From contig JAHBVR010000007.1 of NCBI GenBank assembly GCA_019637395.1, positions 62,001 to 126,000 of the forward strand: 64,000 bases of DNA. Reading direction: 5' to 3'. A program made the translations under genes and the position numbers. This DNA comes from Vulcanimicrobiota bacterium (GTDB taxonomy: Bacteria; Vulcanimicrobiota; Xenobia; Xenobiales; JADMJV01). Below the pieces are notes generated by a model that saw only the letters and a list, made by a program, of their open reading frames with translations, ran no database searches and had not been told where the DNA came from. Positions within the stretch are counted from its first letter, which is position 1. Each line of letters opens with the position of its first letter. Positions 42,850-59,679 of this stretch are shown one piece after another.

Positions 42850-42957
42850 AAAGAGTCGTCTCAGTTCATAAACTGTCAACATGCATGAATCAATTCATTA
42901 ACTTGTAACACTTATTATGAAGAAGTAATAGTTCGGGTCGAGGAGGACACAATTTAG
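42850..42957 (+). promoter_or_regulatory. Upstream region of the rod/hook gene
   Basis: A 108-bp AT-rich gap (unusual in this GC-rich window). It contains AAACTGTCAACATGC (42870-42884), TTGTAA (42903-42908) 17 bp before TAATAG (42926-42931), a weak sigma-70-like pair, and the SD GAGGAGGA at 42940-42947. A separate promoter for the next gene is likely, but the sigma class is unclear. Confidence 0.4.
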
Positions 42958-43770
42958 ATGTTTGATATGACAGGCGCCAGCAACGCGATTAGCCAGAACA
43001 CGCAGTCCATCGGGGCATACTCCGAGAACATGCGCAATCAGTTCACTCCGGGTTATAAGTGCGAATCCGTCCAGTTCAACGATGTGATGAACTCGACCCT
43101 GAACGGCGCCAAGAAGAAGAGCACCAACATCCTCTTCACCCAGGGCGAAATCTTCAAGACCCAGACCCCCACCAACCTGGCCATCAACGGTCAAGGCTTC
43201 TTCATGCTGAACGACGGCTTCAAAGACCACTATACCCGCGACGGTCGCTTCACGTTCCAGGATGGACAGTTGAAGTCTTCCGACGGCAAAGTAGTGCAGG
43301 GCTTCCCGGTCGACTCGCAGGGCAACATCAGCGGCGAGGCCGGTCCCATCAACCTGTCGCTCGATCCTAACACCAACCTTTACGGCGGCAAATACACCAA
43401 CTACAGTTTCGACGAAACCGGCAAGCTCTACGGTGAATCCACCCAGACCGACCCGGTCACCGGCCAGAGCAGCACCAGCAAAACCCCTATCGCCCAGGTA
43501 GCCATGGCCTCGTTTGCCAACGCCAGCTCGCTGAAGCGGACCGGCACCACCAGCTTCGAAGCCTCCGAAAATTCCGGTAAGGCCGTGGTCGGCGTAGCCG
43601 GCCAGGGTGCCCTCGGCGGCGTTTGCCCGGGCAGCCTCGAGCTCTCCAACGTCGACTTCGCCCAGCAAGGCTTCGCCATGGTGATGACCAAGCAGACTTA
43701 CGAAGCCAACATGGCCGCCTTCCGCGCAATGGATAAGCTAACCCAGACCGCGCTCGGCCTCGTCCGCTAA
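42958..43770 (+). CDS. Flagellar hook/rod protein (FlgF/FlgG-like)
   Basis: A 270-residue protein of the flagellar hook-basal-body family. It begins with the rod helix (SNAISQNTQSIGAYSENMRNQFTPGYK, in place of NIANxNTPGYK), has LAINGQGFFMLNDGF, YTRDGRFTF, QLKSSDGKVVQGFPV, and the C-terminal GSLELSNVDFAQQGFAMVMTKQTYEANMAAFRAMDKLTQTALGLVR. LAINGQGFF is diagnostic of FlgE/F/G. It is shorter than most FlgE and could be FlgG or FlgF. It is the only distal rod-type protein in the window. Confidence 0.88.
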   Translation: MFDMTGASNAISQNTQSIGAYSENMRNQFTPGYKCESVQFNDVMNSTLNGAKKKSTNILFTQGEIFKTQTPTNLAINGQGFFMLNDGFKDHYTRDGRFTFQDGQLKSSDGKVVQGFPVDSQGNISGEAGPINLSLDPNTNLYGGKYTNYSFDETGKLYGESTQTDPVTGQSSTSKTPIAQVAMASFANASSLKRTGTTSFEASENSGKAVVGVAGQGALGGVCPGSLELSNVDFAQQGFAMVMTKQTYEANMAAFRAMDKLTQTALGLVR

Positions 43771-43788
43771 CTTCTTCGAACCGTCCGG

Positions 43789-43826
43789 CAAGCCAGGGAA
43801 TCGTCTCAGCGGTTCCAGCTGGCTTG
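43789..43826 (+). terminator. Stem-loop after the rod/hook gene
   Basis: CAAGCCAG (43789-43796) pairs with CTGGCTTG (43819-43826), and inner GGAA pairs with TTCC. There is no U tract, so it may be a weak terminator or an mRNA-stabilising stem. The remaining 145 bp before fliM shows no gene. Confidence 0.4.
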
Positions 43827-43972
43827 TTGACGCGTTTGGCAAATTTTGCGGGAAGGGCTAACTCGCGAAAGAAGCGAACGCCGCTCGGACGGGGTGGGAG
43901 TTTGCGCATTCGGCCCATCGCCGCGGACCGTTAGGGGTCGGTTCTGTACGGTACCAACAAGGAGCTTTAGCG

Positions 43973-44950
43973 TTGCTAGATAGTCCAGGAAGTTACGACC
44001 CACTCCGGGGCCCTCGCCGGGCTCAGGGAGCTAACCCGTACGACTTCCGTCAGACGGAAAAGTTCACGGCCGATCAAAATCGATTCCTGAACAAGCTGTC
44101 CGTATCGTTCGCGGAGAACGTCGTCACTCAGATGGCGCCGCTCTTGCAGGTACGCTTCAACATGGAGCTGTTGCGTTTTCAGCTCCGCGCCTATAGCAAC
44201 TACCTGAACAACCTGCCCGACCCCAGCCCGATGCTGGTCTTCCGGCTCGATGGAGAGTCGCAGGCCTTCCTCGACTTCGACTTCGACCTCACCTTCGCCA
44301 TCTTCGAAAAGCTGATGGGCGGCCGCGGCCTCCCTCCGCGCGAGGATGCGCGAGGCTACCTGACCGACCTGGAGCGAGCTATCCTGCGTCGACCTCTAAG
44401 CCGCATTCTGGCGGCCTACGGAGCGGCATGGAAAGAGTTCAAGCCGGTCGAACCGCAGTGGGAGAGCTTGGAACTCAATCCTAATGCGGTTTACCTCTAC
44501 CCACCGGGGGAAACGATGGTGGTCAGCGCCTTCCAGGTTGACCTGGGCCAGACCAAAGGCATCGTCAACGCGGTGGTTCCCTTCCGCTACCTCAAAGCGA
44601 GCATTCCCAAGAGTTCCTACGATGAATTCGTGTTGACCAAGTCCGGCACGACTCTCGGCGCCGGCGGCGCCAACCCGATGGCTTCCGTTACTCCCATCTT
44701 CGCCACCAAAATCGGCGGAGCCAAAGTGCCGGTCTCGATGGCGCTGGGACGCGCGGAACTCTTATTTAGAGACTTGCTGACCATCGAAGTTGGCGATACC
44801 ATCAGACTGGATACGGAAATCCGCGAGCCGCTCCGCATCAAAGTCAACGGTCGCACCAAATTCCGGGGATTCCCCGGAGTCAAAGAGGGAAAGTTAGCCG
44901 CTCGCGTCTCTCAGGTGCTCGAGGAAGGTGACGAAGAATACGATGAGTGA
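43973..44950 (+). CDS. fliM: Flagellar motor switch protein FliM
   Basis: A 325-residue FliM: NPYDFRQTEKFTADQNRFLNKLSVSFAENVVTQMAPLL, FIFEKLMGGRG-type loop, YLTDLERAILRRPLSRILAAYGAAW and a C-terminal SpoA/FliN-like domain (VPVSMALGRAELLFRDLLTIEVGDTIRLDTEIREPLRIKVNGRTKFRGFPGV). Only about 21 residues precede PYDF, and the LSQxEIDALL motif that binds CheY-P is absent. Start is TTG after AAGGAG. FliN overlaps its 3' end. Confidence 0.93.
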   Translation: MLDSPGSYDPLRGPRRAQGANPYDFRQTEKFTADQNRFLNKLSVSFAENVVTQMAPLLQVRFNMELLRFQLRAYSNYLNNLPDPSPMLVFRLDGESQAFLDFDFDLTFAIFEKLMGGRGLPPREDARGYLTDLERAILRRPLSRILAAYGAAWKEFKPVEPQWESLELNPNAVYLYPPGETMVVSAFQVDLGQTKGIVNAVVPFRYLKASIPKSSYDEFVLTKSGTTLGAGGANPMASVTPIFATKIGGAKVPVSMALGRAELLFRDLLTIEVGDTIRLDTEIREPLRIKVNGRTKFRGFPGVKEGKLAARVSQVLEEGDEEYDE

Positions 44951-45239
44951 TGGACCACGCGCAGTCCAATTTGGAATCATTGAAGGCGGGGGCGCCGAGG
45001 TCAATCCCAGCAGCATTGAATTGCTCAAGGATGTGGCCCTGGTTGTCCACGCCGAACTGGGCAAGACCAAACGCCTGGTACGCGACATTCTGCGCTTGCA
45101 GATCGGCGGCGTGCTGGAGCTCGACAAAGAAGCCGGGGAACCGGTCGACATTCTCGTCAACAACAAGCGTATCGCCCGGGGCGAGGTCGTGGAGATCGAC
45201 GGTCGCTACGGTGTGCGTATCACCGAAATCACGAAGTAG
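44943..45239 (+). CDS. fliN: Flagellar switch protein FliN (copy 1)
   Basis: A 98-residue SpoA-domain protein: LLKDVALVVHAELGKTKRLVRDILRLQIGGVLELDKEAGEPVDILVNNKRIARGEVVEIDGRYGVRITEI. This is the FliN core that forms the C-ring base. ATG at 44943 overlaps the fliM stop by 8 bp. An upstream GTG at 44928 is less likely. Confidence 0.93.
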   Translation: MSDGPRAVQFGIIEGGGAEVNPSSIELLKDVALVVHAELGKTKRLVRDILRLQIGGVLELDKEAGEPVDILVNNKRIARGEVVEIDGRYGVRITEITK

Positions 45240-45249
45240 AGGACAACTT

Positions 45250-45522
45250 TTGGATCCCTTCGCGCAACCACGCCGCTCCGCCAAAGATGACCTGGGCATC
45301 ATGATGGATGTTCCCATGGTCATCGATGCGGAAATGGGGCGCTCCAACAAGACCGTCAATGACGTCTTGAAGGTAGGCGAAGGCAGCGTCATCGACTTTG
45401 AACGCGAGGCCGGCGAACCGGTCGACCTGCTGGTGAACGGAACCCTGATCGCCCGAGGAGAAGTCGTCGAAATCGAGGGCAATTACGGAGTCCGAATCAC
45501 CGAGATTATGCGCCCCTCCTGA
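45250..45522 (+). CDS. fliN: Flagellar switch protein FliN (copy 2)
   Basis: A 90-residue second FliN with the same core: DVPMVIDAEMGRSNKTVNDVLKVGEGSVIDFEREAGEPVDLLVNGTLIARGEVVEIEGNYGVRITEI. It closely parallels copy 1, indicating tandem duplication. I chose TTG at 45250 (SD AGAGGA 7 bases upstream, 10 bp after copy 1). An ATG at 45301 would give a shorter protein. Two FliN types could form heteromeric C-ring units or tie the ring to the sorting platform. Confidence 0.9.
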   Translation: MDPFAQPRRSAKDDLGIMMDVPMVIDAEMGRSNKTVNDVLKVGEGSVIDFEREAGEPVDLLVNGTLIARGEVVEIEGNYGVRITEIMRPS

Positions 45523-45532
45523 GGCCGGCGGC

Positions 45533-46255
45533 ATGATGCGCAACAACTACGCCACCCCGCCCAACCCCAAGCACGCCATCACTTTCGCCCTCGTCAGCGT
45601 AGCCATCCTGATTTTGCCCTTGTTCTGGTCTCCACTCAACGACCAGCGCTTCACCCCGCTGGCGACCACCACTCCTATGACGGTATCACAAATATTGGCC
45701 ACGCCTGTGGCTGTAGCGACCGGGACGCCGACGCCCCGGGCGCTGGAAGTGGCTCGCACCAGCCTGGAAGCAGCCGGCCCCGAGGCCTCCGAGACCCCGG
45801 CGGCAACCCCCCAGGTGGTCGTGGCCGGCAATGACACGACTTCGGTCGTGGAGTCGGCCCGCTACCAGGATCCCACCATGGAGTTCTCCGGCCAGCTTCG
45901 GCGTATCGTGCTTTCGTTGCTGGTGGTTACCGCGCTGATCGCCTTCACTTTGAGGGCGGCCCGCAACCACATTCCGGCCCTGGGTGGTCAAAAGCCCCTC
46001 TCCTTTATGAAAATTCTGGCCCGCGAGGCCATCTCGCCCACCCAGTCCCTGGCGCTGGTCCAGGTGGGCACGAAAATTTTGCTGGTAGGACTGAGTGAGC
46101 AGAATATGACCACGCTGTCTGAATTTTCCGAAAGCGACCTGGAAAGTTTAATCCCGAAGGCTCCCGAGCCCGAAGCCCGGACGGCCAAATCGGTATATGG
46201 AGACGTCTTGAGGCATTACCTCTCGATCGTTCCGGGATTGGGGGCGAAGAAATGA
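45533..46255 (+). CDS. fliO: Flagellar biosynthesis protein FliO
   Basis: A 240-residue protein with two membrane segments (ITFALVSVAILILPLFW at the N-terminus; LRRIVLSLLVVTALIAFTLRAA at about 124-146) joined by a Thr/Ala/Pro-rich periplasmic stretch. The C-terminal domain FMKILAREAISPTQSLALVQVGTKILLVGLSEQNMTTLSEFSE is the FliO signature. FliO helps FliP ring assembly. It overlaps fliP by 4 bp. Confidence 0.88.
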   Translation: MMRNNYATPPNPKHAITFALVSVAILILPLFWSPLNDQRFTPLATTTPMTVSQILATPVAVATGTPTPRALEVARTSLEAAGPEASETPAATPQVVVAGNDTTSVVESARYQDPTMEFSGQLRRIVLSLLVVTALIAFTLRAARNHIPALGGQKPLSFMKILAREAISPTQSLALVQVGTKILLVGLSEQNMTTLSEFSESDLESLIPKAPEPEARTAKSVYGDVLRHYLSIVPGLGAKK

Positions 46256-47043
46256 AACGCTGGCTGTTCGTCATCTTGATGGCTTTGCTGGCGCTCGGAG
46301 CGACGGCGGCCTGGGCTCAGAGCGGCGGCAAAGCCGATCAGAACTTCTTTCCCAAGTTCGAGATGCCCGGCCTGGTGGTCAACGGCAAACCGATGGGCGA
46401 GCGCGCCCAGGTCGGCACCATGCTCCAGGTCAGCTTTGCGCTCACCACTCTGACACTGGCTCCCTACATCCTGGTCATGTGCACCGCCTTTATTCGCGTC
46501 ACCATCACCATGTCGTTTCTGCGCCAGGCGCTGGGAACGCAGCAGGTACCGCCCACCCAGGTCTTGATGGGCCTGGGACTGTTCATCACCATGTACGTGA
46601 TGGCCCCGGTCGGCCACAAAATGAACAAATACGCCATCCAGCCCTATCTGGCCGGCCAGATCGAACAGGCTCAGTTCATCACCGAGTTCAGCACCCCCCT
46701 GCGCAACTTCATGCTGGCCCAGACACGCGACAAAGACCTGCAGCTCTTCGTCAATCTGGGCAAGCTCAAGGACATCAAGAATCGCAACGACGTGCCCTTC
46801 TACGTGCTCTGCCCCTCATATGTGCTCTCGGAAATCAAGACTTCGTTTCAAATCGGGTTTCTGCTCTACATCCCGTTCCTGGTCATCGACATGATTGTCT
46901 CTTCGGTGTTGATGGCGATGGGCATGTTCATGCTCTCACCCATGACCATTTCACTACCGTTCAAGCTCTTGATGTTCGTCATGATCGACGGTTGGCACCT
47001 GATCATCACCGGTCTGGTCAAGAGCTTCAACATACCACCCTGA
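46252..47043 (+). CDS. fliP: Flagellar export gate protein FliP
   Basis: A 263-residue FliP with a signal-like N-terminus (WLFVILMALLALGATAAWAQ), then LTTLTLAPYILVMCTAFIRVTITMSFLRQALGTQQVPPTQVLMGLGLFI, PFYVLCPSYVLSEIKTSFQIGFLLYIPFLVIDMIVSSVLMAMGM and LPFKLLMFVMIDGWHLIITGLVKSF. It forms the core of the FliPQR export pore. The spacing to fliQ is 16 bp. Confidence 0.96.
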   Translation: MKRWLFVILMALLALGATAAWAQSGGKADQNFFPKFEMPGLVVNGKPMGERAQVGTMLQVSFALTTLTLAPYILVMCTAFIRVTITMSFLRQALGTQQVPPTQVLMGLGLFITMYVMAPVGHKMNKYAIQPYLAGQIEQAQFITEFSTPLRNFMLAQTRDKDLQLFVNLGKLKDIKNRNDVPFYVLCPSYVLSEIKTSFQIGFLLYIPFLVIDMIVSSVLMAMGMFMLSPMTISLPFKLLMFVMIDGWHLIITGLVKSFNIPP

Positions 47044-47059
47044 AAGGAGGCATCCAACG

Positions 47060-47416
47060 ATGTTCGGCTTTGGCGAAGAGTTCTTCACAGATGAATACAT
47101 CATGGAAATCTCCAGCAACGCGATGTACCTTATCCTGTTGCTCTCGGCTCCCATGTTGATGTCGGCTCTGGGTGTCGGCCTGGTTATCAGTATTCTACAG
47201 GCCACCACCCAGATTCAGGAACAAACGTTGTCGTTCGTACCCAAACTGCTGGCTACATTCCTGTCCTGCCTGATTTGCGGCACCTGGATCTCCAGTATGT
47301 GCGGCGGCTTTGCCACGCGCCTGTTTACGGATATTCAATACTTCGGTCCCAAGCGAGCGCCCGCCGTTATCGTGACGGAGAACGCCGCAAAGGAAAAGGC
47401 CGGCCCGCGTCCGTGA
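47060..47416 (+). CDS. fliQ: Flagellar export protein FliQ (copy 1)
   Basis: A 118-residue FliQ: AMYLILLLSAPMLMSALGVGLVISILQATTQIQEQTLSFVPKLLATFLSCLICGTW. The motif Q.QEQTLSFVPK is diagnostic. It is longer than the usual 89 because of a C-terminal extension (about residues 88-118, KRAPAVIVTENAAKEKAG). The end overlaps fliR (GTGA). Confidence 0.92.
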   Translation: MFGFGEEFFTDEYIMEISSNAMYLILLLSAPMLMSALGVGLVISILQATTQIQEQTLSFVPKLLATFLSCLICGTWISSMCGGFATRLFTDIQYFGPKRAPAVIVTENAAKEKAGPRP

Positions 47417-48222
47417 ACGACGGTCCTTTCATCGCCTGGGGAACGGCCTTGCTGGCCTTTGTCCGTATCGTAACGGTCTTCGTTCAGGCGCCCATTTTCG
47501 GTGGCCAGCACTTCAAGGCTCCCATCAAAATCGGCATGGCCGCCTCGGTCACCTTGCTGGCTTTCCCAAGCCTGCCCGTTCCCGACCCTTTCCCAACCGA
47601 CACCCGGGCCTTTATTCTGGCCATCCTTACCCAAATCTGCGTGGGGCTGGTGATCGGCTGGGTCTCCTTTTTAGTGATGGCCACCGCCCAGTTCGGCGGC
47701 GAAATGTTGGACGTGCAGATGGGTCTGTCGGCCGCCGCTCAGGCCGACCCCTCCTCGCACGGCGCCGTCAACCTGTTACGACGTCTGCATTTCTACGCGG
47801 CCATGTTGACCTACTTGATGTTCAACGGGCACCACAAGATGTGGGAGTCCATTTTTTACAGCTTTCAGAAAATTCCGTTAACTTATTTTCAAATGACAGA
47901 GCTGCAGATCAATACTATGATAGCTCATGGCAGTGAGATGTACAGGATTGGCCTGCAGATCTCGTCGCCGGCGGTGGCCGCGCTCTTCGTCGCTCAGATT
48001 GCTCTGGGACTGTTGGCGCGCGTGGCTCCGCAGATGAACGTTTTCATGCTGAGCTTCCCGATGAACCTGGCGGTCGGTCTGATGCTTCTGACCATCTCTC
48101 TGCCCTTTATCTTGAAGCTGCTGGAACGCCGAATGGAGATCAACAACGAGGACGTCAGGGAGTCCATCAAGATGATGATTCCCCGCCAAAACCAACCACC
48201 ACCCAGACCCTCACCAACTTGA
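47413..48222 (+). CDS. fliR: Flagellar export protein FliR
   Basis: A 269-residue FliR with about six membrane helices: TALLAFVRIVTVFVQAPIFGGQHF, KIGMAASVTLLAFPSLP, FILAILTQICVGLVIGWVSFLVMATAQFGGEMLDVQMGLS, and LFVAQIALGLLARVAPQMNVFMLSFPMNLAVGLMLLTI. PQMNVFMLSFP is diagnostic. I chose GTG at 47413 in a 4-bp overlap with fliQ; a longer frame to 47275 is the fliQ shadow. Confidence 0.95.
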   Translation: MNDGPFIAWGTALLAFVRIVTVFVQAPIFGGQHFKAPIKIGMAASVTLLAFPSLPVPDPFPTDTRAFILAILTQICVGLVIGWVSFLVMATAQFGGEMLDVQMGLSAAAQADPSSHGAVNLLRRLHFYAAMLTYLMFNGHHKMWESIFYSFQKIPLTYFQMTELQINTMIAHGSEMYRIGLQISSPAVAALFVAQIALGLLARVAPQMNVFMLSFPMNLAVGLMLLTISLPFILKLLERRMEINNEDVRESIKMMIPRQNQPPPRPSPT

Positions 48223-48242
48223 CAGGAAGGAGGTAGCCGGCT

Positions 48243-49346
48243 ATGTCCGACGACAGCGATAAAACCGAAGAGCCCTCTGAACACAAGCTTCAGGAGGCGC
48301 GTAAAAAAGGCCAGGTGCTGAAAAGCCAGGACGTCATCTCCACGGGCGTGCTGGCTGCCGCCGGCTACATGTTCCTGTTCACCGGGGACTGGATCTACAA
48401 GAACGTCGTCGAGTTCACCAGGTATTACTGGGAGCTGATCCAGGTGTCCGGACAGGACGACCTGGTGGAGCGCCCCCTGCTCATGATGATGGCCCACTAC
48501 TGCCTGACGGTGCTGCTCTGCGTATTGCCGCTCTTGCTGGGGGTCGTGCTCATGGGTATCGCCGCCAACGTTTTCCAGATCAAGCTGCTCTTCACGTTCG
48601 AGACCATGAAGCCGTCTCTCGAGAAGATCAATCCCATCTCCGGCTTCAAAAAGATTTTCGCCATGAAGTCGATCATCGAGCTACTCAAACAGTTGCTCAA
48701 GATCGCTGTCATCGGCGTACTCTGCTGGAAAGCGGTGGCCTCCGACCTGCTGAAATTCGGCAGTTCGGCCCAGGAGGAAATCGAAGTCACGGCCACCTTC
48801 GTGATGGAGATCATCAAGCGTTGTCTGCAGTACGTGGTGATGGGCAGCGTGGCCCTGGCCGGGCTCGATTACGCCTGGCAGTACAAGCAGTTCATGAAGC
48901 AGATGCGCATGAGCCACCACGATATGAAGGAAGAGTACAAGGAGACCGAGGGTAACCCTCACGTCAAAGCCAAAATCCGCCAGATGATGCGCCAGGGCGC
49001 GCAGGGCCGCATGATGGAGGAAGTTCCCCAGGCCTCGGCGGTGATCACTAATCCCACTCACATGGCCATCGCCATTCGCTACAAGCCGGGCGAAGACCAG
49101 GTGCCCATGGTGGTGGCCAAGGGCGAGCGCATCAAGGCCCAGCAGATCAAGGTGCTGGCCGAGGATCACGAAATACCTATCATCGAGAACGTTGAACTGG
49201 CGCGGGCCTTGTTCGGGGCCTGCAAGGTCGGTCAGGCGATCCCCACCGAGATGTACAAGGCGGTAGCCGAAATTCTGGCCTATGTAATGAAGTTGAAGCG
49301 CAAGAAAGCGCTTAAGCTGAAGAGTAGAAAAAGTAGGGGGTCTTAG
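48243..49346 (+). CDS. flhB: Flagellar export switch protein FlhB
   Basis: A 367-residue FlhB: start KTEEPSEHKLQEARKKGQVLKSQDV, four membrane helices, then DMKEEYKETEGNPHVKAKIRQMMRQ and the autocleavage site in VITNPTHMAIAIRYKPGED (between N and P of NPTH), ending in a basic tail. The cleaved C-domain sets substrate specificity with FliK. Confidence 0.96.
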   Translation: MSDDSDKTEEPSEHKLQEARKKGQVLKSQDVISTGVLAAAGYMFLFTGDWIYKNVVEFTRYYWELIQVSGQDDLVERPLLMMMAHYCLTVLLCVLPLLLGVVLMGIAANVFQIKLLFTFETMKPSLEKINPISGFKKIFAMKSIIELLKQLLKIAVIGVLCWKAVASDLLKFGSSAQEEIEVTATFVMEIIKRCLQYVVMGSVALAGLDYAWQYKQFMKQMRMSHHDMKEEYKETEGNPHVKAKIRQMMRQGAQGRMMEEVPQASAVITNPTHMAIAIRYKPGEDQVPMVVAKGERIKAQQIKVLAEDHEIPIIENVELARALFGACKVGQAIPTEMYKAVAEILAYVMKLKRKKALKLKSRKSRGS

Positions 49347-49388
49347 GGCGGCGGCGTTACGCCCTCTAGAACCTTAAGGAGAAAGTAG

Positions 49389-51527
49389 ATGGCACCACCT
49401 CCAGCGACAGCGGGACCGAATCCAGATCACCCGTTAATGAAGCTGCTCAAGATGTCGGACGTCATGGTGGCGTTCCTCGTCTTGGGTATCATCATGATGT
49501 TGATCATCCCGCTGCCGCCGTGGTTCCTGGACATCCTGCTGGTGCTCAACATCGCCGGCTCGATCATCACCATCCTCATCTCCATCACCATCTCCGAGCC
49601 ACTGCAGTTCGCCGTATTTCCCACCTTGCTGCTGGTGGCCACGCTCTTCCGGCTGGCCCTTGACGTATCCGCCACGCGTATGATTTTGCTGCACGGCTAC
49701 ATCAAGGATCCGGTAACAAAAGCCCCGATTGGCGCCGGGCACTTGATACCGGCCTTCGGTAACGTGGTGGTCGGCGGTAACCTCATCGTCGGTTTCATTA
49801 TGTTCATCATTTTGATCCTGATTCAGATTATGGTTATCACCAACGGCGCTGAACGTATCGCCCAGGTAGCCGCCCGCTTTACCCTGGACGCTATGCCGGG
49901 TAAGCAGATGGCCATCGACGCCGACCTCCACTCCGGCCTGCTCGACGCCGAACAGGCCAAGCTGAAACGGCGCAACATCGAGCGCGAAGCCGACTTCTAC
50001 GGTTCTATGGACGGTGCCGGTAAGTTCGTCAAAGGCGACGCCATGGCCGCTATCGTCATTATGGTGGTGAACGTGGTCGGCGGTATCTTGATCGGCATTC
50101 TCTACCACAAAATGTCGGCCGTGGACGCGCTCAACACTTTCGCCATTCTCTCCATCGGCAACGGACTGATTACCACCCTGCCGGCCTTCTTGATGTCCAC
50201 CGCGATGGGCATGGTCGTATCCCGCGCCGCCTCCGACAGCAACCTCGGCTCCGATATGGCGCAGCAAATTACCGCCCAACCCGAGGCCTTGAAAATGGCC
50301 GCCGGCGCCATGTTCGGCCTGGGCGGCCTGGGCGTGGCCGGTCTCTTCGCCTTCCCACCTTTGCCTTTCTTCATCCTGGGCGGCATCATGTTCTACGCTC
50401 AACACGTGCTCACCAGCAAGACCGAAGTGGTCCAGGAAGTGGCCGAAGTGCAGGCGCAAGAGCAAAAGAAAGCCGAAGCCAAGAAGCCCGAGTCGGTAGT
50501 CCAGCTGATGCAGGTCGACCCCATCTCGCTCGAGGTAGGCCGCGGTCTGCTCGGTCTGGTCGACCCCAACCAGGGCGCCAAGCTGCTTGAACGCGTGACC
50601 TCGATTCGCCGCCACATCGCTCTGGAAATGGGCATCGTGGTCCCCGGCGTGCGCTTCCGCGATAACCTGCAGTTGAAGCCCAACGCCTACGTCATCAAGA
50701 TCAAAGACATCGAGGTGGCCCAGGGCGAGGTCCAGGTCAACCAGTTCCTGGCCATCGGCCCAGAAGAAAAACTCAAGAACCTGCGCGGCACCAAGACGGT
50801 GGATCCCACCTACGGTATGCCGGGCGTGTGGATTTCGCCTGAGCAACGCGGCGACGCCGAGCGCCTCGGCTGTATGATCTTCGACCCGGTCTCGGTGGTG
50901 GCCACCCAGTTGACCGAAGTGGTGCGCGCCCACGCCAACGACCTGCTCGGCCGTCAGGAAGTCCAGGCGCTCATCGACACCATCAAGAAAACCCACCCGG
51001 CCGTGGTCAAAGAGGTTATCCCCGACGCACTGTCCCTCGGCGAAGTGCAGAAAGTGCTGCAGAACCTGGTCAAAGAGCGCGTCTCCATCCGCGATCTGGT
51101 ATCCATCTTGGAAACCATGGCCGACAACGTGCACATGACCAAGGACCCCGAAATGCTGACCGAGTTCGTGCGCGTTTCGCTGTCGCGCACCATCTGTAAG
51201 GAGTACATGAACAACGAGGGCACCATCAACGTCATCACCCTCGACCCGCAAATCGAACAGACTATTCAGCAGAGTATTCACCGCAGCGAAACGGGCAGTT
51301 TCTTGAACCTGGACCCCAACGTCGGTCAGGAAATTCTGCAAGCGATTGCAGCCCAGGTGCAAACGCTGCAGGAGCGTGGTCTGCAGCCGGTGCTGTTAAC
51401 CTCGCCGCCGGTGCGGCCGGCCTTACGCAAGCTGGTGGAACGTTCTTTCCCCAACCTGGTGTTGCTCTCTTGGAATGAGATTGCGCCCAAAGTCAACGTC
51501 AACTCGGTGGCCATGGTGACGATGTAA
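49389..51527 (+). CDS. flhA: Flagellar export gate protein FlhA
   Basis: A 712-residue FlhA with eight membrane helices (residues about 20-340), FHIPEP-type loop regions (VFPTLLLVATLFRLALDVSATRMIL, AARFTLDAMPGKQMAIDADL, GAMFGLGGLGVAG), and a cytoplasmic domain (about 380-712) ending VTM. It forms the nonameric export ring. The last base overlaps the ATG of the second fliQ gene. Confidence 0.97.
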   Translation: MAPPPATAGPNPDHPLMKLLKMSDVMVAFLVLGIIMMLIIPLPPWFLDILLVLNIAGSIITILISITISEPLQFAVFPTLLLVATLFRLALDVSATRMILLHGYIKDPVTKAPIGAGHLIPAFGNVVVGGNLIVGFIMFIILILIQIMVITNGAERIAQVAARFTLDAMPGKQMAIDADLHSGLLDAEQAKLKRRNIEREADFYGSMDGAGKFVKGDAMAAIVIMVVNVVGGILIGILYHKMSAVDALNTFAILSIGNGLITTLPAFLMSTAMGMVVSRAASDSNLGSDMAQQITAQPEALKMAAGAMFGLGGLGVAGLFAFPPLPFFILGGIMFYAQHVLTSKTEVVQEVAEVQAQEQKKAEAKKPESVVQLMQVDPISLEVGRGLLGLVDPNQGAKLLERVTSIRRHIALEMGIVVPGVRFRDNLQLKPNAYVIKIKDIEVAQGEVQVNQFLAIGPEEKLKNLRGTKTVDPTYGMPGVWISPEQRGDAERLGCMIFDPVSVVATQLTEVVRAHANDLLGRQEVQALIDTIKKTHPAVVKEVIPDALSLGEVQKVLQNLVKERVSIRDLVSILETMADNVHMTKDPEMLTEFVRVSLSRTICKEYMNNEGTINVITLDPQIEQTIQQSIHRSETGSFLNLDPNVGQEILQAIAAQVQTLQERGLQPVLLTSPPVRPALRKLVERSFPNLVLLSWNEIAPKVNVNSVAMVTM

Positions 51528-51844
51528 TGTTGCTGAAGCTGGCTGCCGACCATTTCGATCAGGACTTCATGCTCTCGATCATCAACGAGACGCTGGAGTT
51601 GATGTTGAAATGCTCCTGGCCCATGCTGATGGCCGCCATCATCGTCGGCATCCTGGTAGCCATGTTCCAATCGGTCACACAGGTTCAGGAACAGACCCTG
51701 TCCTTTGTGCCCAAAATCGTGGCCACCTTTCTGGCCGTAGCCATGTACGGTCCAGAAATCTGCGGCGACGTTCAGGGCTTCGCGGCTCGTATTCTCGGCC
51801 AGATCGGCGAAATGGGCGCCAACAACTCCATGTTCCACCACTAA
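51527..51844 (+). CDS. Second FliQ (paralogue)
   Basis: A 105-residue protein of FliQ type: MLSIINETLELMLKCSWPMLMAAIIVGILVAMFQSVTQVQEQTLSFVPKIVATFLAVAMYG. The QVQEQTLSFVPK motif matches copy 1, but the helices and C-terminus differ (EICGDVQGFAARILGQIGEM). A second fliQ immediately after flhA is not the usual flagellar arrangement. It starts at the flhA stop and 10 bp before the methyltransferase gene. It could replace FliQ in part of the FliPQR pore or be a specialised isoform. Confidence 0.88.
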   Translation: MLLKLAADHFDQDFMLSIINETLELMLKCSWPMLMAAIIVGILVAMFQSVTQVQEQTLSFVPKIVATFLAVAMYGPEICGDVQGFAARILGQIGEMGANNSMFHH

Positions 51845-51853
51845 AGGGCCGCC

Positions 51854-53671
51854 GTGGACCTGTTCTCCCAGAAAGTCATGGTCGGCGATGGCGCCATGGG
51901 AACGCGCCTGCAGGCTCTGGTGGGTACTTCCCAGGCCTGTATCGACGGCCTCAACGTCGATCCGAGCTTTCGTGAAATTGTGGCGCTGGTCCATCGCTCT
52001 TACCTCGAAGCCGGCGCGGCTCTGCTCTTCACCAATACTTATGGGGCCAATGTCTTCAAACTGAGCCGACATGGGCGCGACCATCAGGTGCACGAGATCA
52101 ATCTGGAGGGCGCAAAAATCGCGCGGCGTTGCGCGGGCGACCGGCTGGTGGGCGGCTCGGTGGGCCCGCTTGAGATCTACTCCACCCGTGACGAATTCAG
52201 CGAAGAACAACTCGAAGAAATCTTCTGCCAGCAGATGGCCGCTCTGGTCGAGGGCGGAGTCGATTTCCTGGTGCTGGAAACCTTTCAGGATCTGGCCGAG
52301 GCCAGGCTGGCCTTGAAGGCCGCCCGCACATACGGCAAGCCGGTCTGGCTCTCGGTGGGCGGAGTCCAAAACGGACGCACCGGCACCGGTGCCGATGTGC
52401 GCGAGTTCGCCGGTCTGAGCGCCGACATGTTGGGGGCCAACTGCCGCGGTCCTTACGATGTGCTGGAAACGCTACAAATTCTGGCCGGCGTCACTTCCCT
52501 ACCGCTTTTTGCCCGGCCCAACGCCGGCTCGCCCGAGATCGACCGTGGCCGGGTGGTCTACAACGTGGATAGCACGCAGTTCGGTCTTTACGCCAAACGC
52601 CTGGTGGAAGCCGGCGCCACCATGGTAGGCGGCTGTTGCGGCACCGATCCCAGCCACATTGCTCAGGTTGCCGAGAGTCTCCGTGGCTTAAAGCCTCCAC
52701 CTCAGCGGCGGGTCAGCGAAGTTCGCATCTACACACCCGCGCGCCCGGCCCCTCTTCCCGAGGCACCTCCCAACGCCGTCGCGGAAGTCTTCGCCAGGGT
52801 GCCGCTGGTGGTCAGCGTGGAACTGCGCCCGGGCCGCACCACCCCACTGGAGGAGTTTCTCACTTCGGGCCGCTATCTGGCCCAGCGCGGCGTGCACCTC
52901 TTCGACATTCCCGACAACGCCGGCGCCAAGGTCACGGTCGATCCCGTGATTTCAGCCAGCCGCCTGCAGGCTGAAACCGGCATCCCCACTCTGGTCCACC
53001 TCTCCACTTCCCATCGCAATCTGATCGCCACCCAGTCCTATTTGCTGGGTGCCTGGCAGGCAGGTATTCAGGGAGTCCTGGCCGTCACCGGCGACCACCC
53101 CAATGTGGGCGACCATGACAAGTACGCCAGTCGCGTCAACGACGTAAAAAGCTCGGTCAACCTGATGGGCCTGCTCGGAATGCTCAACGAAGGTCGCCTG
53201 TTTAACGACACGCCTTGCTTGCGCACCAATTTCTGCGTGGGCGGGGGCTTCAATCCGGTGCGCGGTCTGACCGCTCAGGTCAAATGGGCGCAGCGTAAAA
53301 TCGAGGCCGGGGCAAAGTTCCTCTATACCCAGCCGGTCTATCGCGAGGAAGACGTGGACCGTATGCTGGAAGTCACGGCCGACTTCAAAATACCTATTCT
53401 GATCGGCATCATGCCGCTGGTCAGCCGGCGCAATGCCGAGTTCTTTGCTTCGGGCAAAATCCCGGGCGTGATCATTCCCGACGAAGTCCTCAACGCTTTT
53501 CACCCCGACGAGCCCAGAGCAGACAGCCAACAGCGCGGCATCAACATGGCCTGCCAGTTGATGGACAAGATTCGCGGAAAAGTCCGCGGCTTCTATCTGT
53601 TACCGCCCTTCGGGCGCGACCACCACACGGTGGTGGGTGAACTGATCGGAGCTTTAGGAAGTCTGAGATAG
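51854..53671 (+). CDS. Bifunctional homocysteine S-methyltransferase / methylenetetrahydrofolate reductase
   Basis: A 605-residue fusion. Residues 1-275 form a homocysteine methyltransferase barrel (VGDGAMGTRLQ, TNTYGANVFKL, zinc ligands in GANCRGP and VGGCCGTDPSH). Residues about 320-605 form an MTHFR barrel (VELRPGRTTPLEEF, LAVTGDHPNVGDHDKY, GGGFNPVRG, AKFLYTQPVY, PILIGIMPLVSRRNAEF). The fused layout matches the known YitJ-type enzyme. It makes methionine from homocysteine via 5-methyl-THF. It lies 10 bp after fliQ copy 2, so it may be read from the flagellar transcript. Start GTG. Confidence 0.92.
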   Translation: MDLFSQKVMVGDGAMGTRLQALVGTSQACIDGLNVDPSFREIVALVHRSYLEAGAALLFTNTYGANVFKLSRHGRDHQVHEINLEGAKIARRCAGDRLVGGSVGPLEIYSTRDEFSEEQLEEIFCQQMAALVEGGVDFLVLETFQDLAEARLALKAARTYGKPVWLSVGGVQNGRTGTGADVREFAGLSADMLGANCRGPYDVLETLQILAGVTSLPLFARPNAGSPEIDRGRVVYNVDSTQFGLYAKRLVEAGATMVGGCCGTDPSHIAQVAESLRGLKPPPQRRVSEVRIYTPARPAPLPEAPPNAVAEVFARVPLVVSVELRPGRTTPLEEFLTSGRYLAQRGVHLFDIPDNAGAKVTVDPVISASRLQAETGIPTLVHLSTSHRNLIATQSYLLGAWQAGIQGVLAVTGDHPNVGDHDKYASRVNDVKSSVNLMGLLGMLNEGRLFNDTPCLRTNFCVGGGFNPVRGLTAQVKWAQRKIEAGAKFLYTQPVYREEDVDRMLEVTADFKIPILIGIMPLVSRRNAEFFASGKIPGVIIPDEVLNAFHPDEPRADSQQRGINMACQLMDKIRGKVRGFYLLPPFGRDHHTVVGELIGALGSLR

Positions 53672-53899: not shown

Positions 53900-55303
53900 A
53901 TGCAAAGCGTCGCCAAGCCAGATCTGCTCTCCCAGCTCTACGAACTCCCGGACAAGCTCTCTCCGGAACAGGCCAAGCAGCTCATGGAAGAAACACTGCG
54001 CGCCTACGAGGACCATATCGACCGCTTCCTCCCACTCTATGTGCGCGTCCTGGGAGAAGAAATGCTGGAATGGCGAGCCGAGGGCGCCTGGCTCTACTCT
54101 CCTACGGGCGAACGCTGGATGGACTGCCTGGGCGCCGGCGGCGTATTCGGACTGGGTTTTCGCCATCCCAAGGTAGTGGAAGCCGTCAAGAAGCAGATTG
54201 ACCGCGTGGGACTGTCCTCGCGCCTCTTCATCAACCCGGTCACGGCGGCGCTGGCTAAGAAGCTGGCCGGCCTGGCTCCCGAAGGCCTTGATCAGGTCTT
54301 CTTTGCCAACAGCGGCACCGAGTCGCTGGAAGCAGCCCTCAAACTGGCCCGTCTGGCCTCGGGCAAACCCGGTATTGTAGGCACTTACTACGGTTACCAC
54401 GGCATGTCCATCGCCACTCTCTCGATATCAGGCCTGGAAGCCTGGCGCAAAGGCACGGAACCGGCAGTGGGCGGCAGCGCCGTGATTGGCTTCAACGACA
54501 TCGAGCAGGTGCGCAAGGCGGTCACCAAGGACACGGCCGCGCTGGTGCTGGAGCCGGTCCAATGGGCTTCCGGTTGCGAAGTGGCCACCACCGAGTACCT
54601 TAAAGCCGTGCGCGAGCACTGTGACAAAGTCGGCGCCTTTCTCATCTTCGACGAAGTCCAATGCGGTCTGGGCCGGGCCGGTACTCTATGGGGCTGCACT
54701 CCCTCGGGGGTCATTCCCGACATTCTGTGCGTCGGCAAGATTCTCTCCGGTGGCATCATGCCGATCGCGGCCGTGGTTTACAACGCCAAGGTACGCTATG
54801 GCGAACGCGACCGGCCGCAGTTCAACAACTCCAGTTACGGGGGCAATCCCATGTCCTGCGCGGCCGGCCTGGCCGCTCTCAACGTGATGACCGACGATGG
54901 CGTTCTCGATCGCGCCATCGAGCTGGGGAACAAGCTCGGCGCCATTCTGGATGAATGGGTCAAGAAGTATCCGAAAGCCCTCAAATCTCATCGGGGCGCC
55001 GGCCTCATGCGCTGCCTGGAAATGAAGCAGCCTTCCATGGGCAGCGTGATGCAAGACTACGCCCGCAAGCGTCATGTGATCGTGGCCTCCATGATGCATA
55101 TGCCGCAATTCGTGCGCGTATCACCGCCGTTCACGGCCAGCGACGAAGAATTCGACTTCTTCCTCAAGGCGGTGGAAGAAAGTCTCGAGGAGATTAGCAG
55201 GATGTCCTTGATGGACCTCATGCGTTACAACAACGACTTTGGAAAACATGCCCAGCAGGTGATGATGCAACTGGCCCAGGACCGAGCCGCGGAAGGGCAT
55301 TAA
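53900..55303 (+). CDS. Class III PLP-dependent aminotransferase
   Basis: A 467-residue fold-type I, class III aminotransferase: GEMLEW...YSPTGERWMDCLGAGGVFGLGFRHPKVVEAV, FFANSGTESLEAALKLARLASGK, LVLEPVQWASGCEV, FLIFDEVQCGLGRAG (Asp binding pyridine N), and the Schiff-base Lys in VGKILSGGIMPIAAVV. The subfamily resembles putrescine/ornithine aminotransferases, but the substrate is not fixed. I chose ATG at 53900; the frame extends to a TTG at 53885. It follows a structured element. Confidence 0.88.
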   Translation: MQSVAKPDLLSQLYELPDKLSPEQAKQLMEETLRAYEDHIDRFLPLYVRVLGEEMLEWRAEGAWLYSPTGERWMDCLGAGGVFGLGFRHPKVVEAVKKQIDRVGLSSRLFINPVTAALAKKLAGLAPEGLDQVFFANSGTESLEAALKLARLASGKPGIVGTYYGYHGMSIATLSISGLEAWRKGTEPAVGGSAVIGFNDIEQVRKAVTKDTAALVLEPVQWASGCEVATTEYLKAVREHCDKVGAFLIFDEVQCGLGRAGTLWGCTPSGVIPDILCVGKILSGGIMPIAAVVYNAKVRYGERDRPQFNNSSYGGNPMSCAAGLAALNVMTDDGVLDRAIELGNKLGAILDEWVKKYPKALKSHRGAGLMRCLEMKQPSMGSVMQDYARKRHVIVASMMHMPQFVRVSPPFTASDEEFDFFLKAVEESLEEISRMSLMDLMRYNNDFGKHAQQVMMQLAQDRAAEGH

Positions 55304-55412: not shown

Positions 55413-55441
55413 TTTACATCACTCAGCCTATGGGTGATACT
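55413..55441 (+). promoter_or_regulatory. Probable sigma-70 promoter for the 81-residue protein
   Basis: TTTACA (55413-55418) and GATACT (55436-55441) are 17 bp apart. Five of six and four of six bases match consensus. Transcription would start near 55448, leaving about 35 bases including a strong SD (GGAGGA, 55468-55473). Confidence 0.5.
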
Positions 55442-55482: not shown

Positions 55483-55728
55483 ATGGCAACTGGGAATATT
55501 ACCAACTTCAACCAGCAGGCGATGGACCAGCAGATGTTCATCACCGACATGCGTCAGGCTCAGTCGACGCAGCGTCAGACCCAATTGGAGCTCCGTAAGG
55601 CCGACGAGAACGATCGCGCCAACGTTGCCAAGCTGTTGACCTCCATCAACGACATCACCTTCGGTGTCCAGAAGGACAAGATGGCTTCCGCCAACAAGAA
55701 CTCCGACCAGGTCAAAGGCTTGCTGTAA
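55483..55728 (+). CDS. Small helical protein of 81 residues, monocistronic
   Basis: An 81-residue polar, helix-forming protein without cysteine or tryptophan: NITNFNQQAMDQQMFITDMRQAQ, then STQRQTQLELRKADENDRAN and VAKLLTSINDITFGVQKDKM. It has no Sec signal or membrane segment. It has its own promoter and a perfect intrinsic terminator, so it is probably an abundant single-gene product. Size and helical nature recall the secreted small subunits (needle/FliE/FlgB-like, about 80 residues) of flagellar and injectisome systems, but there is no diagnostic motif. Unknown. Confidence 0.75.
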   Translation: MATGNITNFNQQAMDQQMFITDMRQAQSTQRQTQLELRKADENDRANVAKLLTSINDITFGVQKDKMASANKNSDQVKGLL

Positions 55729-55741
55729 GAAGCAGGTTTCG

Positions 55742-55771
55742 AAAAAGGGCACCGCGAGGTGCCCTTTTTTT
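55742..55771 (+). terminator. Intrinsic terminator after the 81-residue protein
   Basis: GGGCACC-GCGA-GGTGCCC (55747-55764) is a perfect 7-bp stem, flanked by AAAAA and followed by seven T. A textbook terminator and nearly bidirectional. Confidence 0.93.
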
Positions 55772-55877: not shown

Positions 55878-56477
55878 ATGCAACCCGTTTCCAAGGGCGT
55901 TAGCACGCTAGACCTACAAAAACTCCGGCAGCAGAACGATGATAGTCTGCAGACCCGAGCCACCCAGCAACTGGGCGCCGAACTGAAAGCCGGTAGCCAG
56001 AGCGGCGTCAGCAAAGAAGAAAAGTTGACGGCCGGCCAGGACGATCAGGTGGATCTAACGGCCAAAGAAAAGAGCGCGCGTTCCACCAGCAGAACCCCCG
56101 CTCCGGAAGTCCCCGTCCCGGCCAGCAGCGCCAACCCGACCGAGACGGCCTCCGAATCCTCGGCGCAGAGCACGGCCGCAGAAACAGCTCAAGAAGAGAA
56201 TTCCGGCGGCGGCAGTCAGCAGCCGGACCCTCAAAAGCCCCTCTACAACGAAGAGCAGTTGGCTTTCGCCAATCGTCTGCGCGAACTGGAAGACCAGCGC
56301 AAAACACTGGCGGATATGTGGCGCAAACTCTATATGGATTACATGGCCGACCAGATGCAGGCCGTGGAAGACATGGAAAACTTCCGTCAGACCACCGGCC
56401 TGCTTTGGACCGACGTCTGCACCTCACGCTGGATTCAGGGTGCTCGTCACTCCGAAGCCATGCGCTCGCTTTTGTAA
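55878..56477 (+). CDS. Hypothetical protein, disordered N-terminus and helical C-terminus
   Basis: A 199-residue protein. Residues 1-120 are low-complexity (Ser/Ala/Thr/Glu/Gln), the last 75 form a charged helical region (EEQLAFANRLRELEDQRKTLADMWRKLYMDYMADQMQ). No Sec signal. It has a strong SD (GGAGGG). It is 12 bp upstream of another protein of the same build. The long polar N-terminus and terminal helix resemble secreted flagellar or type III proteins such as FliK, but no family is recognised. Confidence 0.65.
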   Translation: MQPVSKGVSTLDLQKLRQQNDDSLQTRATQQLGAELKAGSQSGVSKEEKLTAGQDDQVDLTAKEKSARSTSRTPAPEVPVPASSANPTETASESSAQSTAAETAQEENSGGGSQQPDPQKPLYNEEQLAFANRLRELEDQRKTLADMWRKLYMDYMADQMQAVEDMENFRQTTGLLWTDVCTSRWIQGARHSEAMRSLL

Positions 56478-56489: not shown

Positions 56490-57332
56490 GTGAACATCGG
56501 CAACATCAATTCCGTGCGCGGCCCCGAGGAAATCGGTTCGATCCGCTCCACCCCGGTTCTGCGGCCCGCTCCTTTGCTCGGCTCGGCGCCTCTGCCCAAC
56601 GACTCGGTGCGCGTCAACGGCTCCGCTCCCGTCCAGGAAACCGGCGGCAAGCCCCTTTCCCAGGTCCGTGACGAATTCAAGGTCGGATTGGCCGGCCTGA
56701 AAAACCAGAGCGATGATGACAAAAGCGCCATTCGCGATATCGCGCGCATGGTGGATGAACGTACCGACCTCAACTCCAGAGAGAAAGAGTGGCTGTTCGC
56801 CACCGAAATGGGCGCCTACACCGCCGACGCGGCCATGTCGATGACCTCGCTCGAGAAGAAAGGCCAACCCTGGACCGCCAAACAGCAGTCCCGCTTTGAA
56901 GCCCTGACGCAGACTTACGCGGCTGCGAAAGGCGTGGCCGAGGCCGTCACCCCCATGGTGGCTCGTCCTGATAGCGCCCCCAGCTTTGAGGCCGCCGGAC
57001 CAGGCGCCCCTATCAAAGCGGCCGCTCCACTCACTCCAGCCCCGTTACAACCCGCCCCCCCGATCGGCGTGCCCACCGCGGCTGCCAGCGCTACTCCGGC
57101 CGCCGACGGCAACGCGCAGGCAGGTAACACTCCGCCGGCCCCCCCTAAAGACCCGCTGGTGGCCATCTGGGAGTCGCGCCGCCAGGAAGCCCAGGACGTC
57201 TTCAACGACTACAAAGCCCTTATGCAGAAGATGACGGAATGGAAGCAGCGTATCATCGCCTCCCGCATCGCCTTCTTCTGGAAGGTCTACGGCGCTCATA
57301 CCACCTTCCTGTCGGACGGCTGGAAGCGTTAA
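56490..57332 (+). CDS. Hypothetical protein, helical and Pro/Ala-rich
   Basis: A 280-residue protein with a GTG start 12 bp after the previous gene. Residues 1-55 are disordered; 55-150 are helical (QVRDEFKVGLAGLKNQSDDDKSAIRDIARMVDERTDL, TDLNSREKEWLFATEMGAYTADAAMSM); 160-230 are Pro/Ala-rich; the C-terminal 50 residues are helical with three Trp (AIWESRRQEAQDVFNDYKALMQKMTEWKQRI). Its C-terminal layout resembles the preceding protein. Unknown family. Ends at an intrinsic terminator. Confidence 0.65.
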   Translation: MNIGNINSVRGPEEIGSIRSTPVLRPAPLLGSAPLPNDSVRVNGSAPVQETGGKPLSQVRDEFKVGLAGLKNQSDDDKSAIRDIARMVDERTDLNSREKEWLFATEMGAYTADAAMSMTSLEKKGQPWTAKQQSRFEALTQTYAAAKGVAEAVTPMVARPDSAPSFEAAGPGAPIKAAAPLTPAPLQPAPPIGVPTAAASATPAADGNAQAGNTPPAPPKDPLVAIWESRRQEAQDVFNDYKALMQKMTEWKQRIIASRIAFFWKVYGAHTTFLSDGWKR

Positions 57333-57345
57333 AAGCCTGAAAAGG

Positions 57346-57398
57346 AAGCCCCTGACGGTTCCTTGAACACAAGGAGAACACCGTTCAGGGGCTTTTTT
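57346..57398 (+). terminator. Long intrinsic terminator that also traps an SD sequence
   Basis: AAGCCCCTGA (57346-57355) pairs with TCAGGGGCTT (57385-57394); inside, CGGT pairs with ACCG, and TCCTTG (57360-57365) pairs with CAAGGA (57370-57375). TTTTTT follows. The only good SD for the next gene (AAGGAG, 57371-57376) lies within the hairpin, and the U tract ends two bases before its ATG. This may be a terminator, an attenuator or an RBS-masking element. Confidence 0.8.
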
Positions 57399-57400
57399 GC

Positions 57401-58579
57401 ATGCACGTCAATTACGACCCGCAGATTTCCTATGAGTGCGTTCAGTGTGGACGCGGCTGCTTTAATCGCTGGGACATCGGAGTGGAAGACTCGGTAGTCC
57501 AGTCGCTCAAGGGGCACCAGCTCGAGCTGCGCGTCATCCAGGAGAGGGGCCAGGCTTTTCGCCAGGACGAGGACGGACACTATATCGTCAACAAGGGACC
57601 GGACCACCCCCGCTGCGGCTTTCTGAAGGAAGACCTGCTCTGCTCCATCCACAGCGAGCTGGGCTATGAAGCCAAACCCCTGACCTGCCAGCAATATCCC
57701 TACGTCTTCGTGCAAACCCCCGACCGCGAAATCCACGCCAGCGCCGTCTACAGTTGCACAGCAGTCCGCGAAGAGCTCGGCCCCCCCCTCAAAGAGAGTC
57801 GGGAGTCCATTGAAGACCTGATCCGCCGCGGTGCCCGCGTCCATCGGCTGGACGGGAATATCGAAATTCTGCCGCCCTTTGAAGCCACTTATCCCGAAGT
57901 TCAGGCCTATGAAGCGGAGCTCAATCGCAAATTCGGCCAGATGCCCATCTCCGCCGCCTTCGAAGAGGCCATTCTCGGACTGGCCAACGCGCTCTCCAGC
58001 CTGGGCCAACCCGAACAGGAATCGGTGCTGCTGCAAGAGGGTTTACTGGCCTCCAGTTGGGGCCGGGCCAAACTGGTTCCAGCCGAGGCCCGTTCGCAAC
58101 TGCAGCTCATCAAAACCATCCTCAGCATGGGGTTGCTCAAACCCTGTCTGCCCGGTCAGGACCGCGAGGTCTGGAAAAAAATCGACGCCGCCGTGCTGGG
58201 CGACGCCGATCTGGAGATCCCCGATTTTAACTGGCAGGCTCCTTTGAGTGAGCTGGATCTCTGGATCAACGAAGGAGTAGGCCACCGCTTTGATGGCCAG
58301 ATCAAACGCTTCCAAAGCTCGCTGCTCTTCCGCAAATCACACCTGACCATGGGAGGCCTGTTGCCCGGCTTGATGCTGGTCTGGATTATGCCCACCATCA
58401 TTCGCCTGCTCACCGGGCTGCACGCCTGGAAAGAACAGGTCGAGCCCAATCTCAACAACTTCCTGTGGGGTCTGGAAGTGGCCGAAACCCATCTGGTCGG
58501 CCATACTTTCGACACCGTCCAGGTCTACCAAAGAGCCGCCTGGCAGGCGGTGGCCATCTCGAGATCCTACCAGCTGTGA
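57401..58579 (+). CDS. Cysteine-cluster protein resembling FliB flagellin lysine-methylase (copy 1)
   Basis: A 392-residue protein. Cysteines at residues 13, 16 and 20 (YECVQCGRGC) are followed by further Cys in PRCGFLKEDLLCSIHSELGYEAKPLTCQQYPYVF. This C-x2-C-x3-C...LC.I...LG......TC..YP pattern is that of the YkgJ-like cysteine-cluster superfamily, which includes FliB, the flagellin lysine-N-methylase. The C-terminal 250 residues are helical, with a hydrophobic segment (LLPGLMLVWIMPTIIRLL). Being close to the flagellar cluster supports the link. Start codon lies two bases after a terminator. Confidence 0.75.
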   Translation: MHVNYDPQISYECVQCGRGCFNRWDIGVEDSVVQSLKGHQLELRVIQERGQAFRQDEDGHYIVNKGPDHPRCGFLKEDLLCSIHSELGYEAKPLTCQQYPYVFVQTPDREIHASAVYSCTAVREELGPPLKESRESIEDLIRRGARVHRLDGNIEILPPFEATYPEVQAYEAELNRKFGQMPISAAFEEAILGLANALSSLGQPEQESVLLQEGLLASSWGRAKLVPAEARSQLQLIKTILSMGLLKPCLPGQDREVWKKIDAAVLGDADLEIPDFNWQAPLSELDLWINEGVGHRFDGQIKRFQSSLLFRKSHLTMGGLLPGLMLVWIMPTIIRLLTGLHAWKEQVEPNLNNFLWGLEVAETHLVGHTFDTVQVYQRAAWQAVAISRSYQL

Positions 58580-59679
58580 AGCTGAGCATTGATGAGAAGC
58601 TGAACTATGAGTGCATTCAGTGTGGGCGTTCGTGCACCGGTTGGAATGTGTGGCTGCGCGATGAGTTGGCCGAGCGCCTCAAGGAACTGCCCATCACTCT
58701 GCGGGTGATTCAAGAGCGAGGGCAGGCCTTCGAGCGAGTGGACGGCGTGCTCAAAATGTATCGCGACGAAGCCCACCCCGCCTGCGGCTATCTCAATGAA
58801 GAGAAGCTCTGCAACATTCACGCTACCTTAGGATTTGAAGTGAAACCTAAAACCTGCCGGCAGTTTCCCTTCTTCATAACGCGCTTGCCCGACGGCCAGG
58901 TGCGCGCCGGAGCCTCCCATTGCTGCACGGCCGTGCGCGGACAACTCGGGCCTTCCCTGAGCGAGAGCCGGGCGGACATCGAAGCACTGCTGGAGCAGGG
59001 AGCGCAGATGCGCGAGGTGGAAGCCGAGGTTGAAATTTATCCAGGTCACGTTCAGCCTTATGAAGCGGTGCTGGCCTTCGAGCGGCACTTTGAGGAGCAA
59101 CGCGTCAGGCTGGGCTGGGGAGGGGCCCTAGAAGGCGCCCTGAGCGCGCTGGCCACACCGCTGGGTGGGCCCTGGCAGCCCTACCAAGGCCTTAGCCAAC
59201 AGTTGCCATTGCTCAGCCAGATCATGACCATGTCGTTGCTCAAACCCTGCCTGAATGATCACAACCGTGAACTCTGGCAGCGTATCGACCAGGCCTTCCT
59301 GGGCGAAGGAGAGCTGGAAATTCCCGAGTACGCCTGGAAGGCTCCGGTAGCCGACCTGGATCTGCTCATCCGCGCGGGCGTAGGCTCTCGTTTTGACGAT
59401 GGGATCGATAAGTACCGGCGAGCCATCTGGTTCCGTAAAGGCCATCTGCTGGCCGGCAACCTGGTGGCCGGCTTGCTGCTGCTCTGGTCTCTGCCTGGCA
59501 TCCTGCGTCTTCTGACCGCTCTGGAGGCCTGGAAAAATGGCCGCGAACCAGCCGCCGAAGATTTCAGTCAGGCCCTCGACACAGTGGAAATGAGCCTGGT
59601 AGCCCATTCCCAGAACGGCGAACTGCTGGTACAAAAAATGAGCCATCACCTGCTGGCGATGGCTCAAATTCCCGGCTGA
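58576..59679 (+). CDS. Cysteine-cluster protein resembling FliB flagellin lysine-methylase (copy 2)
   Basis: A 367-residue paralogue with the same start (YECIQCGRSC, Cys 13/16/20) and ACGYLNEEKLCNIHATLGFEVKPKTCRQFPF. I chose GTG at 58576, which overlaps the stop of copy 1 (GTGA); a longer frame to 58465 is a shadow of copy 1. The C-terminal part is helical and includes LVAGLLLLWSLPGILRLL. Tandem duplication and coupling suggest the two act together, perhaps as a heterodimer. Confidence 0.75.
   Translation: MKLSIDEKLNYECIQCGRSCTGWNVWLRDELAERLKELPITLRVIQERGQAFERVDGVLKMYRDEAHPACGYLNEEKLCNIHATLGFEVKPKTCRQFPFFITRLPDGQVRAGASHCCTAVRGQLGPSLSESRADIEALLEQGAQMREVEAEVEIYPGHVQPYEAVLAFERHFEEQRVRLGWGGALEGALSALATPLGGPWQPYQGLSQQLPLLSQIMTMSLLKPCLNDHNRELWQRIDQAFLGEGELEIPEYAWKAPVADLDLLIRAGVGSRFDDGIDKYRRAIWFRKGHLLAGNLVAGLLLLWSLPGILRLLTALEAWKNGREPAAEDFSQALDTVEMSLVAHSQNGELLVQKMSHHLLAMAQIPG

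Follow-up and report, generated by a model that had tools for sequence, protein, structure and literature searches.

The window, that is, the whole stretch of 64,000 nucleotides that was analysed, carries two adjacent open reading frames, here termed A and B, which are predicted to encode FliB-like cysteine-cluster proteins and lie downstream of a flagellar-type gene cluster (System 1). The features considered are the following:

33889-51844, forward strand: System 1, flagellar-type cluster, upstream of A and B
51854-53671, forward strand: homocysteine methyltransferase/MTHFR-like gene, named from sequence; conserved with System 1
53900-55303, forward strand: PLP aminotransferase-like gene, named from sequence; conserved with System 1
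55413-55441: conserved promoter-like element of p81
55483-55728, forward strand: p81, 81 amino acids with six lysines
55741-55770: terminator of p81
55878-56477, forward strand: p199, without a family match; orthologues found within the genus only
56490-57332, forward strand: p280, likewise without a family match and with orthologues found within the genus only
57343-57399, forward strand: terminator-like hairpin with T-run, 57 nt, after p280 and ending directly before the ATG of A
57401-58579, forward strand: A, ATG start, 392 amino acids
58576-58579, forward strand: stop/start overlap of A and B (GTGA, 4 nt)
58576-59679, forward strand: B, GTG start, 367 amino acids

The same 4-nt overlap was seen at the congener loci L057, L058 and L059, and from this arrangement A and B are probably translationally coupled. 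A preliminary description of this DNA had presented them as coupled tandem copies sharing Cys at residues 13, 16 and 20 and a C-x6/7-LC...TC..(Y/F)P block, and all of these features were recovered: the genes are adjacent and overlapping, the three cysteines are present in both proteins, and the block occurs in both with a spacer of x7 in each (C72-x7-LC81-SIHSELG-...-TC96-QQYP in A; C70-x7-LC79-NIHATLG-...-TC94-RQFP in B). The N-terminal cluster reads CX2CX3C in either protein. Alignment of 57 relatives revealed seven invariant cysteines, located at positions 13, 16, 20, 72, 81, 96 and 119 of A and at 13, 16, 20, 70, 79, 94 and 117 of B, and both proteins retain every invariant residue. The dN/dS ratio was 0.05-0.18 for both genes, indicating purifying selection. 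The C-terminal part is long, conserved and helical, and includes R311, K312, E362 and H368 in A. The AlphaFold2 model of A was confident (mean pLDDT 92.5, pTM 0.90); a fold search with this model against PDB and BFVD returned nothing at E <= 0.001, and a sequence search against PDB gave no real match.

Membership in the FliB/YkgJ superfamily, which had also been proposed, was borne out by two profile models and by profile-profile alignment. The NCBIfam FliB model NF038110 scored 49.6 bits on A (E 4.1e-13) and 44.9 bits on B (E 1.1e-11), both under its curated cut-off of 85 bits and covering only the N-terminal residues ~11-122; no protein above this cut-off was found among 149 genomes of the phylum. 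Pfam PF03692, with a gathering threshold of 23 bits, was exceeded by B (28.0 bits, E 3.5e-6), while A scored 21.1 bits as a protein (E 5.2e-4) and 24.7 bits when the genome was scanned, and its membership is thus borderline. Across 14 control genomes the FliB model matched none, whereas the generic PF03692 model matched nine, which argues that the resemblance to the FliB side is specific. The profile comparison with FliB that had been suggested as a check gave a match for the N-terminal domain: hhalign of 48 relatives of A and B with seven FliB proteins returned Prob 98.8 (E 4.5e-17) over 108 columns. The C-terminal part aligned to the same seven FliB sequences, a small set, with Prob 0.2, and the last ~95 residues scored 9.8, below the highest column-shuffle score of 11.6. 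A C-terminal likeness to FliB noticed by eye (Y..Y, W-LL-L-AA and a terminal H) was unsupported by these profile and column-shuffle tests and was set aside. In addition, tblastn of A against 72,556 plasmids gave only two matches, both annotated fliB; PHROG held no match for A or B, and viral contigs yielded a single short relative and, in two scans, no FliB.

An alternative to modifying enzymes is that A and B are metal or Fe-S proteins of the YkgJ type that serve in redox reactions, metal handling or maturation and have no methyltransferase activity, their likeness to FliB reflecting only a shared metal-binding domain. The position of B above the PF03692 threshold and the end of the FliB similarity after the metal domain are consistent with the YkgJ-type role, as are a KPxxC..FP(F/Y) block that differs from the ..C..(F/Y)PR of FliB, and which we take to resemble that of generic CxxCxxCC proteins, and the fusion of family members in the sister genus G139 to a FAD-dependent oxidoreductase/halogenase-like domain. 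However, A was covered better by the FliB model than by PF03692, the FliB model was silent on the PF03692 proteins of the control genomes, and the length of A and B (367-392 amino acids) is near the 373 positions of the FliB model. Such a non-methylase function is a substantial possibility, almost as likely as that of a protein-modifying pair. A literature search on YkgJ/PF03692 found no further characterised member.

A and B are part of a family with about a dozen paralogues in a single genus of Ca. Eremiobacterota, the label that most named relatives of the host genus carry. Searches with A alone located 12 places in this genome (G000) and 9-12 in each of four congeners, and the maximum-likelihood tree resolved orthologous groups common to the genomes of the genus. 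A clade with 100/100 support united A and B with one further group, which is consistent with local duplication. A second tandem pair adjoins two T2SSE/PilT-type ATPase genes and forms its own tree cluster (support 88/83), and a third was found in G133, so that tandem pairs occur at three loci. The tree places A near B, and likewise the PilT-side partners near each other. Most other paralogues adjoin unrelated metabolic genes, and the link of the family to appendages is therefore weak; no common partner gene was found among the neighbourhoods compared. The sister genus G139 has family members of its own, some of them fused to the FAD-dependent oxidoreductase/tryptophan-halogenase-like domain (L069 5565-7742 and L070 7003-9198, of 725 and 731 amino acids).

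Whether A and B work together is a question separate from their chemistry. They could be simple tandem duplicates acting independently, with no heteromer, as their neighbouring positions in the tree and the retention of every invariant residue in both would fit. On the other hand, the intact pairs of the congeners retain the 4-nt overlap, and two other loci hold tandem pairs of a similar kind. Independent action is accordingly a plausible outcome, rated a little under an even chance.

Genomic context analyses revealed that System 1 comprises rod, MS-ring, C-ring and export genes along with fliE and fliK. Its genes are flgB, flgC, fliE, fliF, fliG-like, fliH, fliI, fliJ, an SLT transglycosylase gene, fliK, flgE/F/G-like genes, fliM, two fliN genes, fliO, fliP, fliQ, fliR, flhB, flhA and a second fliQ; fliG/H/I/J/M/N/P/R and flhB were named by sequence and order. 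No flagellin gene lies inside the cluster. Five genes separate System 1 from A, and the genus-wide order is fliQ, homocysteine methyltransferase/MTHFR, aminotransferase, p81, p199, p280, A and B, with the order in G138 split over two contigs and the contig of G135 beginning within p81. A and B adjoin System 1 in five of five genomes of the genus, which upholds the flagellar neighbourhood described for the pair; in the sister genus G139 they were not seen next to System 1.

Further observations concern the export genes. The two fliQ genes of the cluster lie at 47060-47416 and 51527-51844, and two stand side by side in G139, where the homocysteine methyltransferase/MTHFR-like gene sits between flhB and flhA (L156 8932-10794). 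Speculatively, the MTHFR-like gene near the flagellar cluster might be linked to methyl-donor supply. Outside the window, this genome encodes a second full-length FlhA (L157 11641-13758) and a partial third FlhA-like gene of 519 amino acids (L159 9770-11329), with no recognisable full flagellar cluster around either. In the genus, about a dozen proteins per genome (for example L157 2-1522) match FlhA over its C-terminal cytoplasmic half alone (profile ~320-656), and such proteins also occur in other families of the phylum.

The distribution of flagellin bears directly on a role of A and B as flagellin lysine methylases like FliB, for which the FliB homology and the flagellar neighbourhood would speak. 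In this genome, searches with PF00669, a congener flagellin query and FliD returned nothing convincing, and neither flagellin nor FliD was found in G138, yet both genomes keep A and B. In G135, G136 and G137, flagellin, FliD, FliS and a second FlhA occur in a separate locus, System 2, which lies away from A and B and is missing from G000 and G138. System 2 seems to form a single linked locus, so an assembly gap is a possible, if less likely, reason why these genes are missing from the two assemblies, which are 97.9% (this genome) and 82% (G138) complete. With or without such a gap, A and B track System 1, not flagellin. FliB-like proteins are absent from most of the phylum's flagellin-bearing genomes. 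Since no flagellin was found here and that of the congeners lies elsewhere, flagellin methylation, the target implied by a FliB assignment, is largely refuted for this species and now highly improbable; if A and B are protein methylases, they must have another target.

The small lysine-containing neighbours had been put forward as such targets. The adjacency of p81 to A and B is conserved in the genus, and most of its six lysines are retained in its paralogues. The protein is almost invariant, being identical to that of G136 except for a one-residue gap, and its dS was 0.185, compared with about 1.3 for p199 and p280. Its AlphaFold model is a single helix (pLDDT 86). This near-invariance, together with the promoter-like element, a strong SD and the terminator, is what a structural protein with very high expression would show, and p81 may be one. 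However, the same signals, with the strong hairpin between p280 and A, suggest that p81, p199 and p280 are in transcription units apart from A and B, so the pair is probably not simply co-transcribed with its proposed substrate genes. Moreover, none of four further full-length copies of p81 in this genome was found at a FliB-like locus, and in G139 A and B were not seen beside System 1. Methylation of p81, or of p199 or p280, by A and B is therefore left unsupported and considered unlikely.

The hairpin itself is well conserved. Its predicted folding energy is -31 to -36 kcal/mol, with z-scores of -5.1 to -7.5, and it is 96-100% identical among G000, G135, G136 and G138, its right arm being lost in G137; by comparison, the divergence of A at synonymous sites is 0.58-0.65 between G000 and G135/G136. 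It was present as a single copy and not as a repeat in the sequences searched, and no Rfam family reached gathering score in the stretch that holds it. The hairpin may regulate A and B.

The first ~28 residues of p81 (GNITNFNQQAMDQQMFITDMRQAQ) recur in otherwise unrelated proteins: besides p81 and its four full-length paralogues, the carriers include a Met-rich tandem-repeat protein, an EF-hand protein, a three-copy protein and others. The module is usually N-terminal but may be internal or repeated, with 18 matches in this genome and 3-12 per congener (loci L181-L200 in G000, G135, G136 and G138). None was found in 144 other genomes of the phylum that were searched, and the string had no match in the literature searched. 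The module may serve as a common signal for export or assembly.

Taken together, the N-terminal FliB homology, the seven cysteines, the purifying selection and the placement after the flagellar-type cluster were all observed for A and B, and the most likely reading, tentatively held, is that of an Fe-S-dependent protein-modifying pair whose target is not flagellin. A and B would be divergent proteins, translated together, that fall on the FliB side of the PF03692 superfamily, with an N-terminal domain that binds an Fe-S cluster. The two chains may act together or on related targets, and would modify a protein in the cytoplasm as FliB does, most plausibly by SAM-dependent lysine methylation. 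The best guess is that this target belongs to System 1 or to the cell envelope, as a component or a client. A more specific form, very unlikely as it stands, is that the protein-modifying pair is dedicated to an export system derived from a flagellum but lacking flagellin, the clients of which share the 28-residue ITNFNQQAMDQQ module, with expression of the pair gated by the hairpin; if true, enzymes of a FliB-like class would have moved from flagellin to new targets among other exported proteins. FliB, known for acting on flagellin, is an unusual lysine methylase that depends on a [4Fe-4S] cluster, and the A/B family forms a distinct, expanded FliB-like branch in an uncultured lineage, with a predicted fold without a solved relative. 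Together with the retention of this branch in a genome without detectable flagellin, this suggests other targets for the FliB-type domain, and A and B offer a concrete system in which to seek them.

Compared with known systems, A and B share with FliB the N-terminal Cys-rich domain, seven of eight Cys positions, a conserved Trp after the first Cys group and a similar length. FliB of Salmonella is a [4Fe-4S], SAM-dependent lysine methylase whose cluster motif is CX4CX3CC (PMC8598068). FliB (NF038110) is represented by Salmonella, Erwinia, Pantoea and Selenomonas. The seven FliB sequences compared have eight cysteines and the CX4CX3CC motif, and in all of them the conserved Pro is followed by Arg, whereas A and B have CX2CX3C, are missing the eighth Cys and carry F/Y in place of the Arg; the C-terminal two thirds have no detectable profile similarity. 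A and B further differ from FliB in being a tandem pair and in a host genome without detected flagellin. The preliminary FliB-like assignment stood for the N-terminal homology, but the pair misses the model cut-off, the CX4CX3CC motif and the eighth Cys, and showed no C-terminal similarity to the seven FliB sequences. Given the Cys and Arg differences, the N-terminal-only match and the absence of a PDB or BFVD fold match, A and B are classed from their sequences as FliB-like, not FliB. With the YkgJ-type CxxCxxCC proteins of PF03692 they have the metal-binding Cys signature in common, but they match the FliB model, on which the control-genome PF03692 proteins gave no hit, and are set apart by their long, conserved, helical C-terminal part.
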